Source: Lentisphaera profundi
GTDB lineage: Bacteria; Verrucomicrobiota; Lentisphaeria; Lentisphaerales; Lentisphaeraceae
NCBI RefSeq assembly: GCF_028728065.1
Contig: NZ_CP117812.1
Span: 1,922,001-1,986,000, forward strand
Length of the DNA: 64,000 bases
Reading direction: 5' to 3'
Positions 12,211-18,013 of the stretch are shown here, one piece after another. The translations under genes were made by a program, and so were the position numbers. The notes under the pieces were generated by a model, which was not told the origin of the DNA, did not search any database, and saw nothing but the letters and a program-made list of their open reading frames with translations. Position 1 is the stretch's first letter, and each line of letters begins with the position of its first letter.

Positions 12211-12861
12211 ATGGATCTATCCCACTACTCACGACAAAACACCAAAACGCGAATTTTGATTGCTGCCTCACGAGTTTTTTCTCAGAAAGGTTATGAAAAC
12301 ACCACTGTACAAGACATTTGCACCGCATCCGATGCAAATATTGCCGCTGTTAACTACCATTATAAAAGCAAAGAAAATCTCTACAAAACAGTATGGACTC
12401 ATCTGTATACAATAAATGAGGATGCAAACAATGAAATCTTCCGAGATGACCTCGATCCTGAACTACAACTTCGTCACTTTGTCAGTAATCGCGTGAAATC
12501 TACTTCTGATGAAGGTGAATTAGGCTTTTTGTCAAAGCTTATTTCTTATGAACTCAACAGCCCTAGCCCCAGCTATGACTACTTATATGAAACATATATT
12601 CAACAGCGTTGTAAGTGGATTCTCAACTTAGCCAATCGTCTGTCAAATAAGAGCTTATCTGATTCTACTTTGGCGCAAATATTCTTTTTTATTAATAGCC
12701 CCATTATTCGCTTGAATGATCACCTAAGTGATAAAAAACGAAGTCAAACAAATGACCCCATCAATAATGATGAGATGATTGATAATATGTATAATTATAT
12801 TTTAGGTGGAATTAAACAAATATGCCAAGAACAACAGCAGCAGAAACCACTTATTTCTTAA
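12211..12861 (+). CDS. TetR/AcrR family transcriptional regulator
   Basis: The N-terminal region (TKTRILIAASRVFSQKGYENTTVQDICTASDANIAAVNYHYKSKENLYKTVW, residues about 11-62) is a standard TetR helix-turn-helix; the NYHY-KSKENLY end is typical. The C-terminal ligand domain is similar in layout to CecR/YbiH-type regulators (DUF1956), which often regulate efflux genes. The gene is 84 bp behind the RND pump, has its own palindromic operator, and overlaps the 3' end of the convergent sigma-factor gene by 11 bp. A role as local repressor of the efflux operon is inferred from position. Confidence 0.88.
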   Translation: MDLSHYSRQNTKTRILIAASRVFSQKGYENTTVQDICTASDANIAAVNYHYKSKENLYKTVWTHLYTINEDANNEIFRDDLDPELQLRHFVSNRVKSTSDEGELGFLSKLISYELNSPSPSYDYLYETYIQQRCKWILNLANRLSNKSLSDSTLAQIFFFINSPIIRLNDHLSDKKRSQTNDPINNDEMIDNMYNYILGGIKQICQEQQQQKPLIS

Positions 12862-13675
12862 TCTCATCCAAATGCCGAGAGAGCTTCTTCAAGGCTTTAT
12901 GTTGAATTTGCCTTACCCGCTCTCGAGTTCGTCCGATGAGCTCACTTATTTCGTCTAAAGTATGTTGATCTCCTCCATCGAGGCCATAGCGCATACTGAT
13001 AATAAGCTTCTCTCTTTCTGATAAATGCTTCTCTACACATTCCTCTAGAAGGTTTTTAACATCTCTTTCATCCATTTCCCCACCGGGAATCGATGCCATT
13101 AAATCTGGCAACATATCTTCTAAAACGCCACCCTCGCCATCTTTCAAGCTTGTGCTTAGCGATATAGCAGGAGACGTTGCCGCTACTTTTAAATTGTGTA
13201 CCGATCGCGGGGATATATCTGCGGCTTCCGCAATTTCAGCTTCACTTGGCACTCTACCAAGTTCTTCAGCTAAATGCATGGCAACTCTTTGAATTTTATA
13301 CATTTTAACTGCTGATTGTACGGGGATGCGAATGACACGACTTTGTTCCGCAACACAGCGACGAATAGCTTGCTTAATCCACCAAGCTCCATAAGAAGAA
13401 AATTTCGCCCCCATGCCTGGCTTAAACTTTTCGACCGCTTTCATTAGGCCTATATTGCCCTCAGAAATTAAATCGGCTAAAGGGACTCCCAAAGATTTAA
13501 AATCATGTGCTATCTTGACAACTAAACGCAAATTTCCGACTATTAGTTGTTCCCTTGCGGTCTCTGATCCTCGTTCAATCAATTCTGCTAGTTCTATTTC
13601 ATCATCTCGAGAGATTAATGGTAATTCTGCTATATTATTCATATAACTGCGCACACTCTCGTCAATAAAATACAT
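12851..13675 (-). CDS. RNA polymerase sigma-70 family factor (group 2/3)
   Basis: A 274-aa sigma factor with regions 1.2 to 4.2. Region 1.2/2.1 is DESVRSYMNNIAELPLIS; region 2 contains GNLRLVVKIAHDF, LADLISEGNIGLMKAVEKF and FSSYGAWWIKQAIRR; region 3 holds RVPSEAEIAEAADIS; region 4 has LSEREKLIISMRYGL and TLDEISELIGRTRERVRQIQHKALKKL. It lacks the long region 1.1 of a housekeeping RpoD, so it is an alternative RpoS/RpoH/SigB-like factor. It directly follows the YgfZ-TPR gene (8-bp gap) and overlaps tetR convergently. The regulon cannot be told from this window. Confidence 0.9.
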   Translation of the reverse strand: MYFIDESVRSYMNNIAELPLISRDDEIELAELIERGSETAREQLIVGNLRLVVKIAHDFKSLGVPLADLISEGNIGLMKAVEKFKPGMGAKFSSYGAWWIKQAIRRCVAEQSRVIRIPVQSAVKMYKIQRVAMHLAEELGRVPSEAEIAEAADISPRSVHNLKVAATSPAISLSTSLKDGEGGVLEDMLPDLMASIPGGEMDERDVKNLLEECVEKHLSEREKLIISMRYGLDGGDQHTLDEISELIGRTRERVRQIQHKALKKLSRHLDEIKK

Positions 13676-13683
13676 ACTAAGCC

Positions 13684-15345
13684 CTAGTTTAATTGTTGTA
13701 GAAGCATCTCCATTTCTTGTTTTGGCATTAACTCACCTTTCTCATGTGCAATTACAATGCCTTTTAACAAGAGGGACTTAGCCTCTTCTTCTCTTTTCAC
13801 TAGTATATAGGCTCGAGCTAGCAAAGTACAGCAAACGGAATAATCTCTTTTAAGCTCCAGGCATTTTTCTAAATATTTTATTGCTTCATCTGCCTGCTTA
13901 AGCTCTAAGGCAATTTTTCCTAAGCCAAAATTAGCCGCTAAGTCGTCAACATCTATTTCTAAGACTTCATTAAACATCCCTCGACGTCTTTCACGCTCAG
14001 CATTCGCCGCTGTTTCTAAATCTTTATTATTAATTTTTTGCTTACGTTTAGCAGCCGCTATGCGAAATGTGGTCAATGTCCCTTCTTGCTTCTCTGCTTC
14101 AGCTTCATCTATCATGCCCTTTTTCATATAAAAAACAGAAAGATTGGTGTAGGCCATTACAGTATTGGGGCTGAGCTCCTTAAGTCGTTTCATCAGTTCT
14201 ATTGCTTCATCAAAACGTTCATGCCGTGAAAGCAAGACACCCAAAGCCTCATAGGCATCTTGATAACTAGGATCTAAATACAAGGCCCGCTTCAATAAAG
14301 GCTCCGCGGCAATATCTTGTACTTCATCTGATGTCGCAAATAACTCTAGGGCTTGATAATAACATTCGCGCGCAAGCTCTATTGCATTGCTTTCCGCAAC
14401 AGGAGGCAAAGAACTCACATTCCCTTTATATTCTTGACACTCACTATCAATAAAACTCACACTCATGCCAGGTTCACGAAACTTTTTATTTAGATAGACA
14501 TAAAGAATGAATTTTTTTAAGACTGGTGACCAAGTTTGACTTTTATAAAGTCCAATTTTTTTGCCGTCTATTGTACATAAGAAATCATTTTGCTTGAGTT
14601 CAGCAGGAACTGAATCAACAAGGATGGCACTAAGGTAACGATTCACATTGCCTCTATACTTAACTCTTGCAACGATTTCTTGTCCCGTAAAGCATCCCTT
14701 GGTATAGGATACACAATGCAATTGCAAACCACTTTCTGGCAATAAGGTACTTTGATTATAATCAGCATCTTGAATGGGAAAACCCGCTTCCATTCGCAAA
14801 CTTTTAAATGTCTCATCGCACATTTCTAACTTAAGCGCTGGTGGCGTTTTTTCTGCTGTAATTAAAATCGCACTATCCAGACCTAGGAACCCTGCTGTTA
14901 ATAAATATTGTGAATTATGCTCGTAGATACGTCGAGCTTCTACTTGTTGAATGCCCATCTCTTTCATCATCGATGAACTTGCATCAAGTTTATATAAATG
15001 ATAAAGCTTTAATTCATTTCGCAGAGTTAAGTCTGCGTCTTCCATAATGATGTGCTTCTCTAAGTGTGCCTTCACATCATTCACCACTGATCTTGCACAC
15101 AGAAGATAAAAATTATTCTTATTAATCTTAAGTAAAAAATGATGTGAAATAATCTTTCCCTGCGGAGTCAATAAAGATGATAAATGCATACTTTTATCAT
15201 TTAATTCTTTAACATCATTGGTACTCTGCCCCTGTAGTACAGCCTCAGCATCATCTCCTTTGACCTCAAGCAGACAAAAATCCTTTAATTCATAAAACGA
15301 GCTATCTTTTTGGACATTATTATAGTTATTGAGCCAATTCATCAT
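13684..15345 (-). CDS. YgfZ/GcvT-like folate-binding protein fused to TPR repeats
   Basis: Residues about 1-320 are a YgfZ (folate-binding, Fe-S repair) protein: LKDFCLLEVKGDDAEAVLQGQSTNDV at the start and the diagnostic KGCFTGQE (about residues 215-222) followed by IVARVKYRGNVNRYL. YgfZ usually ends there (about 325 aa). Here about 230 further residues form tetratricopeptide repeats (PLLKRALYLDPSYQDAYEALG, TVMAYTNLSVFYMKKG, EAIKYLEKCLELKRDYSVC). The start codon, ATGATG, overlaps the PhoD-like gene by 20 bp. Members act with tetrahydrofolate in Fe-S protein maintenance; the TPR tail suggests a protein-binding task (inference). Confidence 0.85.
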   Translation of the reverse strand: MMNWLNNYNNVQKDSSFYELKDFCLLEVKGDDAEAVLQGQSTNDVKELNDKSMHLSSLLTPQGKIISHHFLLKINKNNFYLLCARSVVNDVKAHLEKHIIMEDADLTLRNELKLYHLYKLDASSSMMKEMGIQQVEARRIYEHNSQYLLTAGFLGLDSAILITAEKTPPALKLEMCDETFKSLRMEAGFPIQDADYNQSTLLPESGLQLHCVSYTKGCFTGQEIVARVKYRGNVNRYLSAILVDSVPAELKQNDFLCTIDGKKIGLYKSQTWSPVLKKFILYVYLNKKFREPGMSVSFIDSECQEYKGNVSSLPPVAESNAIELARECYYQALELFATSDEVQDIAAEPLLKRALYLDPSYQDAYEALGVLLSRHERFDEAIELMKRLKELSPNTVMAYTNLSVFYMKKGMIDEAEAEKQEGTLTTFRIAAAKRKQKINNKDLETAANAERERRRGMFNEVLEIDVDDLAANFGLGKIALELKQADEAIKYLEKCLELKRDYSVCCTLLARAYILVKREEEAKSLLLKGIVIAHEKGELMPKQEMEMLLQQLN

Positions 15346-16951
15346 TCTCTACATTTGGATTAAATTTATGTTCTATCCCACGACTATACATGCTAATTTT
15401 AATCTCACTCTCTAATTTGAAATAACAGTAATTAGAATAATGTAAAATCTTAGACCCTTGGCAAGAAGTCAGGTATTTACCATTTCGAGAAAAAGAGTTA
15501 TATAGACGAAACCACAAACGGGCGAGTATCGTTACTGGAGGTTTATTCTTTAATGAACTCACCACTAATTGAATAATACTTTTATCATTAAGCTCTAATT
15601 TTCTGGCAAAAGAGTAATGTACATCTCCCGAAAGAATTATGATTTTCCTGTAAGTTGAGTTCAAAATATTTTTTTCTAAGTACCTCAATGAATTCGATTC
15701 ATCACTCACCTGATCAGCAGCATGCCAACCTTCTCGATCAATTAAAGAAACGGATGACGGTAGAAACGCTAATAAACTCTGAAGACGCTCTATCGCCTCA
15801 TAAGCATAAATTGGTGACGGGCTGACAAGAATGCAGTCATTATTCTGATTATCATCTCTTAGTAATTCGTCAATTTTACTCAATTTCAATAATCCTGCGG
15901 GCAACTGAGCTGTCTCACCCCCGTAGCGATGATTACGAGTATCTAGAAAGATAAAATCTCGTGCAGCTATAGATAAGCTAAATGACCAATCAGCTTCGTC
16001 AACAAGACGTGAGGACAAGTCTTTTTGAGAACTTTGAAGCCCTACATATGAATCTATTACTTGATCGTATTCACCATACTCACCGTAATTTCCCATTGAT
16101 TGAAACAAATAGCCTACCGCATAAGCATTTGCCAAAACTTGAAATCCACATTCGTTTATGTTCTCTAACCAAAAATTATTGATTTTAAGGTCATCGCTTA
16201 CATCATGATCATCCATTTGCATATAAACAGGAACATTGGCAAAGAGTTTTCGAACTTTCGTTAAATCACTGCGATTAATGATCTTTTCATTTTTCTCCCA
16301 AAGCTCATCACTCCAAGACAAAAGATATAAGATGATGAATTCACCTAAGGACAATAAATGATTTTTAGATTTTCTACTTGTTAAACCGATAGACTTACAG
16401 AGCTTTTTCCGATTAGTTAAATTTGACACCTTAGTCTGAGGAAATCCATACTGTTTTACTAATTCGGTGATTTTCGCAAACAAGCCATCACTTATATCAT
16501 CACTATAAACTTGATCTCCAGTCAATATCAACATTTGCGGACGCTCACCACCCTGAGTAAACGCGTCTAACATCTTTGGGAGACAATCCTCTTCATGAGA
16601 TGAGAGTTTGCGGCAGGACCCTGTCAAAATACGTTCTGAGCCAAACTCAAAGGATGGATGCAAACTCAATCCATCTAAACTTAGAGATAAGTCACTTATT
16701 ATACTCTCTTGTTTATTTATTATATCGTAATGATAAGTACAGCCTTCGTCTAATTGAAGTGTCGCTCGAAATATATAAAAAAATATTTTATTGGCGAAGG
16801 GAATCTTGCGGACATCGCAACTTAGAGTGAGTGCTTTATCATTTTTAAAGACCTGAAGCGTCAGATCTAGATCTTCTTCAAGGATAATCTGTACCGAAAT
16901 AAAGTCCTTTTCAACACGTCGTAAATGCGGCCCAGATAATACGCGACACAT
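15326..16951 (-). CDS. PhoD-like metallophosphatase
   Basis: The protein has the metal-binding motifs of PhoD-type phosphodiesterases/alkaline phosphatases: LILTGDQVYSDDISDG (about residue 140), QMDDHDVSDD (about 245), FLDTRNHRYGG and a C-terminal ILSGDVHYSFA (about 438). No signal peptide is evident, unlike classical secreted PhoD, so it may act in the cytoplasm; related cytosolic PhoD-like proteins occur in many bacteria and fungi. Length is 541 aa. The ATG has a strong AGGAG site. It is upstream of, and overlaps, the YgfZ-TPR gene. The substrate is unknown. Confidence 0.85.
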   Translation of the reverse strand: MCRVLSGPHLRRVEKDFISVQIILEEDLDLTLQVFKNDKALTLSCDVRKIPFANKIFFYIFRATLQLDEGCTYHYDIINKQESIISDLSLSLDGLSLHPSFEFGSERILTGSCRKLSSHEEDCLPKMLDAFTQGGERPQMLILTGDQVYSDDISDGLFAKITELVKQYGFPQTKVSNLTNRKKLCKSIGLTSRKSKNHLLSLGEFIILYLLSWSDELWEKNEKIINRSDLTKVRKLFANVPVYMQMDDHDVSDDLKINNFWLENINECGFQVLANAYAVGYLFQSMGNYGEYGEYDQVIDSYVGLQSSQKDLSSRLVDEADWSFSLSIAARDFIFLDTRNHRYGGETAQLPAGLLKLSKIDELLRDDNQNNDCILVSPSPIYAYEAIERLQSLLAFLPSSVSLIDREGWHAADQVSDESNSLRYLEKNILNSTYRKIIILSGDVHYSFARKLELNDKSIIQLVVSSLKNKPPVTILARLWFRLYNSFSRNGKYLTSCQGSKILHYSNYCYFKLESEIKISMYSRGIEHKFNPNVENDELAQ

Positions 16952-17023
16952 GATTCTTCTCCTCTTAGATAAACTTTATTAAGGTAATAAAATTTATCAA
17001 AAAATCAATTGATATACAGAGGG

Positions 17024-17100
17024 AAATAAAAAAGACTGTTACTTACGCTAGGAGGAGGATAGGAGGTATGGAGGATAGGAATAAGCATAAGTAACAGTCC
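17024..17100 (-). ncRNA. Hairpin 1: terminator-like RNA with anti-Shine-Dalgarno loop
   Basis: On the plus strand GACTGTTACTTA (17034-17045) and TAAGTAACAGTC (17088-17099) are perfect complements. Inside lies a C/A mismatch and then GCT/AGC. Read on the minus strand the mismatch becomes a G-U wobble, giving an unbroken stem of about 16-17 bp, followed by six U, one A and three more U (17033 to 17024). The 34-nt loop (17050-17083) is almost pure pyrimidine on that strand and contains CCUCC repeatedly, including ACCUCCU at 17067-17061, the anti-SD core of 16S rRNA. It could be the end of a small RNA or an unusual terminator; expression is not shown. Confidence 0.6.
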
Positions 17101-17200
17101 ATACACACACTATGTTCCTTGATGATAATTTAACAAATAGACTTGGTGTTTTTTCTCACAAAAACTATAAATAGTACAAATCTGTATAGATAGCGGTCGC

Positions 17201-17270
17201 AAAAAAAAGCCGTTGCCTATGTAAATGGAGGGGAGGTATGGAGGAAAGGAGGATACATAGACAACGACCT
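17201..17270 (-). ncRNA. Hairpin 2: second terminator-like RNA with anti-Shine-Dalgarno loop
   Basis: Plus-strand arms CGTTG-C-CTATGTA (17211-17223) and TACATAG-A-CAACG (17254-17266) pair. On the minus strand the C/A mismatch again becomes a G-U wobble, and outer pairs (including 17210/17267 as G-U) extend the stem to about 17 bp, running into a tract of eight U (17208-17201). The 30-nt loop (17224-17253) is pyrimidine-rich on the minus strand with several CCUCC copies and shares the 14-nt plus-strand core GGAGGTATGGAGGA (17232-17245) with hairpin 1 (17062-17075). It lies 70 bp after the recO stop and could also terminate that transcript. Confidence 0.6.
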
Positions 17271-17339
17271 ATATGTAAACTACCCACAAGAAAGAAAATT
17301 ACAAGAGTTCATGATTAAAAAATGAAGATTATGTTAATG

Positions 17340-17956: not shown

Positions 17957-17989
17957 ACAAAAAAACCGCTGGGAATAAACCCAGCGGTT
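17957..17989 (-). terminator. Terminator of the rplQ operon
   Basis: Inverted repeat AACCGCTGGG (17964-17973) / CCCAGCGGTT (17980-17989) with a 6-nt loop. On the minus strand it is followed by seven T and then, within three to four bases, the recO ATG. A typical strong intrinsic terminator. Confidence 0.9.
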
Positions 17990-18013
17990 AAAAAGCTTTA
18001 CGCTAAAAAGCGA

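Follow-up and report, generated by a model that had tools for sequence, protein, structure and literature searches.

The 64,000-nucleotide stretch of Lentisphaera profundi DNA analysed here (the window) carries two minus-strand hairpins that appear to represent a previously undescribed family of tiny RNA genes of Lentisphaera. Our favoured reading, to which we assign a probability of roughly 0.57, is that they are short autonomous small RNAs of a small paralogous family, with the loop as an antisense seed for purine-rich mRNA. The candidate family is compact: its RNAs would have 65-75 nt, each genome carries three or four copies of the gene, the ends can be predicted and the core of the loop does not vary. 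The loop is near-constant while the stem changes with compensation, which suggests a small regulatory RNA whose loop grips either purine-rich RNA or a protein. On the minus strand, HP2 (17207-17270) precedes HP1 (17033-17100) in the direction of transcription:

17201-17270, minus strand: HP2, predicted small-RNA gene of about 70 nt, a single hairpin, based on sequence, fold, conservation and covariation
17254-17270, minus strand: HP2, 5' arm
17224-17253, minus strand: HP2, loop (UCCUCCUUUCCUCCAUACCUCCCCUCCAUU)
17207-17223, minus strand: HP2, 3' arm
17201-17208, minus strand: HP2, U-tract
17028-17100, minus strand: HP1, predicted small-RNA gene of about 73 nt, a single hairpin, based on sequence, fold, conservation and covariation
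17084-17100, minus strand: HP1, 5' arm
17050-17083, minus strand: HP1, loop (UAUUCCUAUCCUCCAUACCUCCUAUCCUCCUCCU)
17033-17049, minus strand: HP1, 3' arm
17028-17033, minus strand: HP1, U-tract

Both stems have 17 bp when G-U pairs are counted, and both have C/U loops (34 nt in HP1 and 30 nt in HP2), with a U-tract directly 3' of each stem; usual terminator loops have 3-8 nt. Sequence, folding and a stem scan agreed on this architecture and bore out the original prediction, which had described two stems of about 17 bp, C/U loops of these sizes and U-tracts. The span it had given (17024-17270) contains both hairpins, but begins some bases beyond the end of the HP1 U-tract. As isolated hairpins, HP1 and HP2 fold on the minus strand with z-scores of -9.6 and -6.5. 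When 1.94 Mb of the genome was scanned on both strands for stems of at least 13 bp enclosing loops of at least 78% C/U, only these two hairpins and a third, HP3, were found. Because the fold energies are far below those of shuffled sequences and such structures are so rare in 1.94 Mb, the feature is genuine and not a product of chance. The two stems are 106 nt apart, and the intervening DNA is poorly conserved except for a promoter-like block of HP1.

A 14-mer, GGAGGTATGGAGGA, is present in both window hairpins, confirming the shared loop core that had been noticed at the outset. The 5.46-Mb genome contains exactly three copies of it, every one inside such a hairpin. The third copy, HP3, lies on another contig and combines a 13-bp stem unlike that of HP2 with the same 30-nt loop. 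A covariance model built from HP1, HP2 and HP3 was searched in other Lentisphaera genomes and in genomes of the family and phylum. It recovered HP1-HP3 at the corresponding loci in both other Lentisphaera genomes, as well as HP4 in L. marina, yielding ten members over three species (HP1, HP2 and HP3 in each). The idea of a pair of small-RNA genes was supported at the level of predicted genes; only two copies are visible in the window, and there are four hairpin types across the three species. Throughout the family the C/U loops are unpaired and 22-34 nt long, and the core CCUCCAUACCUCC is surrounded by two to four CCUCC words. These words are spaced 8 nt apart, with an AUA spacer that is invariant in 10/10 members. 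A U-tract follows every stem, that of HP3 in the window's genome having four U only.

The genomic setting of the pair is stable. In all three species HP1 and HP2 are flanked by a gene for a 206-aa protein, which follows rplQ, and by a PhoD-like gene. The cluster ahead of the 206-aa gene is one that we take, by recognition of its sequences, to be rpsM-rpsK-rpsD-rpoA-rplQ. Two genes past the hairpins lies a gene for a sigma-70-family-like factor of 274 aa (12851-13675), which is also syntenic in all three species. HP3 is found downstream of secG/tpiA-like genes, directly in two species and separated from them by other genes over about 4 kb in the window's genome. HP4 (L068 8189-8245; G198:C1:1291182) has its own stem and is carried by an integrated element with genes for a tyrosine integrase, an AAA ATPase and a CobT-like VWA protein; a dnaA-like gene adjoins it. 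HP4 is a possible mimic of the host RNAs, and its presence on a mobile element suggests that the loop is important enough to be imitated.

Of the findings that the original prediction had named as speaking against it, two were looked for, namely loss of the CCUCC loops in relatives and stem variation without compensation, and neither was observed. All ten members in the three species carry the CCUCCAUACCUCC core unchanged. Loop identity across the three species amounts to 30/30 columns for HP2, 30/30 for HP3 and 31/35 for HP1 (100%, 100% and 89%), whereas the flanking DNA of the same species has 24-52% identical columns. Among the eight distinct sequences of HP1-HP3, stem positions form standard pairs on the minus strand in 100% of cases, and 8/15 stem pairs have changed on both sides; when the partner was slid as a control, pairing fell to 25-51%. 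The two arms do not evolve alike. The 5' arms (17084-17100 and 17254-17270) are nearly frozen between species, with 31/32 identical columns, and the 3' arms (17033-17049 and 17207-17223) have 24/32, their drift mostly keeping the pairing via G-U. The 5' arm behaves as if it carried a second role.

Several known regulatory RNAs share parts of this design. Cuckoo RNAs of alphaproteobacteria (alpha-r14/NfeR1, CcsR1-4 and the CIN1 locus) have highly variable stems, a conserved C/U anti-SD-like loop and several copies (PMC10746234, PMC3927594, PMC4504443). The Lentisphaera hairpins are likewise present in several copies and combine freely varying stems with a conserved loop, as seen in the covariation and in the identical loops of HP2 and HP3 on different stems. 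However, Cuckoo transcripts contain 2-4 hairpins with a nine-base CCUCCUCCC loop, a sequence found in 0/10 of the Lentisphaera loops, which are longer and have the CCUCCAUACCUCC core. HP1 and HP2 stand in tandem, but in the three species each comes with a promoter-like block and a U-tract of its own; HP3 and HP4 are solitary. In addition, a DUF1127 gene shares the transcript of the CcsR group, whereas DUF1127 (PF06568) had no match in the three Lentisphaera genomes. The resemblance to Cuckoo RNAs that had been proposed therefore appears to be one of design and not of membership, a conclusion with which the lack of an Rfam match agrees.

RepG of Helicobacter pylori has a C/U-rich loop on its terminator hairpin, and regulation requires no more than this stem-loop (PMC8295292). 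The Lentisphaera hairpins similarly display a C/U-rich loop on a terminator-like hairpin, but RepG targets a homopolymeric G-repeat, and a relationship in sequence was not detected, Rfam giving no match. RepG is single-copy and has a second stem-loop, and H. pylori is not known to encode Hfq. In Listeria monocytogenes, LhrC1-5 are several homologous RNAs that bind the ribosome-binding site of mRNA through redundant CU-rich motifs, of which one lies in the terminator loop, and that do not need Hfq (PMC4132741). Several homologous copies per genome and a CU-rich motif in a terminator loop are shared with Lentisphaera; LhrC RNAs, however, are near-identical throughout and contain two stem-loops as well as UCCC motifs, whereas the Lentisphaera hairpins have only the loop in common and differ in their stems. 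NfeR1 provides a further proven antisense precedent for the design (PMC10746234). From these comparisons, the Lentisphaera hairpins appear Cuckoo-like and RepG-like in design and members of neither family.

We rank an antisense RNA first because the design matches that of RepG, LhrC and NfeR1, whose action is proven. Each RNA of about 70 nt would be one hairpin that doubles as intrinsic terminator and loop display. The loop is most likely the working part, an exposed antisense seed for mRNA stretches of the GGAG, GAGG or AGGA type. Pairing would often occur at ribosome-binding sites, so that translation may be repressed or otherwise altered, and several equivalent loops per cell could provide dose or redundancy. 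Hfq was not detected by its Pfam model in the three Lentisphaera genomes, with positive controls working; the usual small-RNA chaperone is seemingly missing in these species. CsrA (PF02599) was also absent from the three genomes in a search that was positive in E. coli, B. subtilis and T. maritima. Since neither protein was found, pairing by the loop alone or some other binder would be needed.

A function in anti-Shine-Dalgarno pairing or ribosome competition had been suggested from ACCUCCU in the loop of HP1. The sequence identity holds: the 16S 3' end reads ...GGATCACCTCCTTT and its tail contains CCUCCUUU. The suggested function is supported only in part. Common Shine-Dalgarno words in this genome are AAGGA, AGGAG and GGAGA, and GGAGG precedes the start codon in just 16 of 1,442 predicted genes. 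Over the 1,442 start regions, duplex energies with the loops equalled those of shuffled C/U loops; enrichment over shuffles was seen for HP1 words only (p ~0.001). Conserved loop pairing showed no excess in 98 ortholog pairs. Outside the hairpins, no genome sites were found that match the loop core well or offer long complements, multi-GGAGG sites being mostly GGAGGnGGnGGAGG-type strings, which by appearance we presume to be coding repeats. Few copies of GGAGNATGGA were found ahead of start codons in a broader search. The start region GAGGAGTATGGAATG of a comM-like gene is kept in both species compared and, with a single bulge, can pair with the loop core; we do not claim it as a target, as shuffled loops reach equally good conserved sites. 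Any C/U loop is in principle anti-SD, but because pairing at start regions and in ortholog pairs was no better than that of shuffled loops, anti-SD complementarity leaves the specific, invariant arrangement unexplained. GGAGG rarity, duplex energies, ortholog pairs and the poor core matches outside the hairpins all count against the antisense reading, as does the constancy of AUA, for which an anti-SD seed has no need.

The main rival is a protein sponge, in which the loop would be a multivalent dock that titrates a protein binding C-rich single-stranded RNA (KH-domain, cold-shock, S1-like or Rho), much as CsrB/RsmZ do with CsrA. The place of GGA would be taken by CCUCC words at 8-nt intervals. 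The regular spacing and invariant spacers fit such a dock well, the loop is kept base by base, more than generic SD pairing requires, and no long complementary target was found; with CsrA and Hfq not found, another global binder may serve. On the other hand, no candidate for such a protein emerged from the analysis, loop lengths differ between paralogs, and a base-pairing seed explains a C/U loop equally. We regard this explanation as distinctly less probable than antisense action. CsrB/RsmZ also carry a short repeated motif in their loops, but their GGA and the CCUCC of Lentisphaera are opposite in base composition and CsrA was not found here. A narrower form, in which a Lentisphaera-specific, single-hairpin CsrB-like sponge of opposite alphabet has been copied by the HP4 element, which may interfere with the host circuit, is more speculative still.

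Features expected of autonomous genes were found next to the hairpins, as putative elements on the minus strand:

17277-17304, minus strand: HP2 promoter-like block, TTGTAA (17299-17304), 16-nt spacer, TAGTTT (17277-17282)
17109-17136, minus strand: HP1 promoter-like block, TTGTTA (17131-17136), 16-nt spacer, CATAGT (17109-17114)
16981-17008, minus strand: separate promoter-like block downstream of HP1, TTGATT-N16-TACCTT, conserved in three species

In the HP2 block, TTGTAA is kept in the three species with TAGTTT or TAATTT at the same distance, and both hexamers of the HP1 block are unchanged in surroundings that have diverged. The pattern TTGnnn-N16-(C/T)AnnnT occurs upstream of 10/10 copies, 31-37 nt ahead of the stem, a nearly constant distance. 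These blocks place the predicted start at the foot of the stem, so every element resembles an autonomous gene whose RNA would have about 70 nt (65-75). We treat the promoters as putative since a generic consensus promoter scan listed none of these weak hexamers, a weakness that also counts against the antisense reading. Because the third block would supply the next gene (15326-16951) with its own start, HP1 probably does not act as a leader or attenuator of that gene.

The tandem arrangement with conserved promoter-like blocks just upstream also bears on the notion that these are plain intrinsic terminators of upstream genes, with odd loops that have no function. Both hairpins do have the make-up of an intrinsic terminator, a GC-containing stem with a U-tract directly after it, and lie downstream of minus-strand genes. 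However, few bases in the region are as well conserved as those of the 30-34-nt loops, HP2 and HP3 have the same loop at unrelated loci, and rplQ already has an ordinary terminator-like repeat (17961-17991). We consider mere terminators improbable.

All 15 of the distinct non-Watson-Crick pairs over HP1-HP4 are G-U on the minus strand and none is A-C, an outcome with a chance of about 3e-5, by our reckoning, if either mismatch were equally likely. Therefore the minus strand is the RNA strand, as the original prediction had argued from G-U versus C/A and as the stronger minus-strand fold agrees. This G-U bias, with the promoter-like blocks and U-tracts, is an RNA feature, and it makes a DNA-level element (a protein-binding palindrome, a mobile repeat, or a G-quadruplex- or triplex-forming site) slightly less credible than terminators. 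The polypyrimidine core is mirror-symmetric and one copy sits on an integrase-bearing element, but copies are few and syntenic in all three species, and mobility genes were not seen beside HP1-HP2. A plus-strand RNA whose loops, abundant in GGA/GGAGG, sequester CsrA or the 16S anti-Shine-Dalgarno is highly implausible, given C-A mismatches wherever the minus strand has G-U, weaker folds (z -5.8 for HP1 and -0.5 for HP2), no U-tract after the stem, and CsrA not found in the three genomes with positive controls.

The family appears to be confined to the genus. With the covariance model, real members were absent from three genomes of other sampled genera of the family and from 195 genomes of the phylum. 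Matches at class or phylum level were long perfect stems whose 3' arm is C-rich and which lack a loop of this kind (L011, L012 and L015) or ordinary terminators (L013 and L014). A loop scan of 84,980 species genomes found hairpins of this kind in Lentisphaera only; loop-pattern matches in other phyla, and two on viral contigs, lay outside matching hairpins. Rfam 15 covariance models gave no match at E up to 2 for the HP3, HP4 and L. marina pair loci, and near HP1/HP2 only unrelated sub-threshold matches, with none in the window at gathering scores. No Lentisphaera small RNA was found in a literature search or among Rfam matches.

If the loop acts by pairing, as we favour, the family would be a convergent Cuckoo/RepG-type design pared to a single hairpin, and this in bacteria where Hfq was not detected. 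Should it bind protein instead, it would point to an as yet unrecognised global RNA-binding regulator. In addition, the U-tracts of HP1 and HP3 are followed in all three species (for example, L001 1462-1472) by a run of C on the RNA strand that varies in length, up to 12 nt, and resembles a variable simple repeat.
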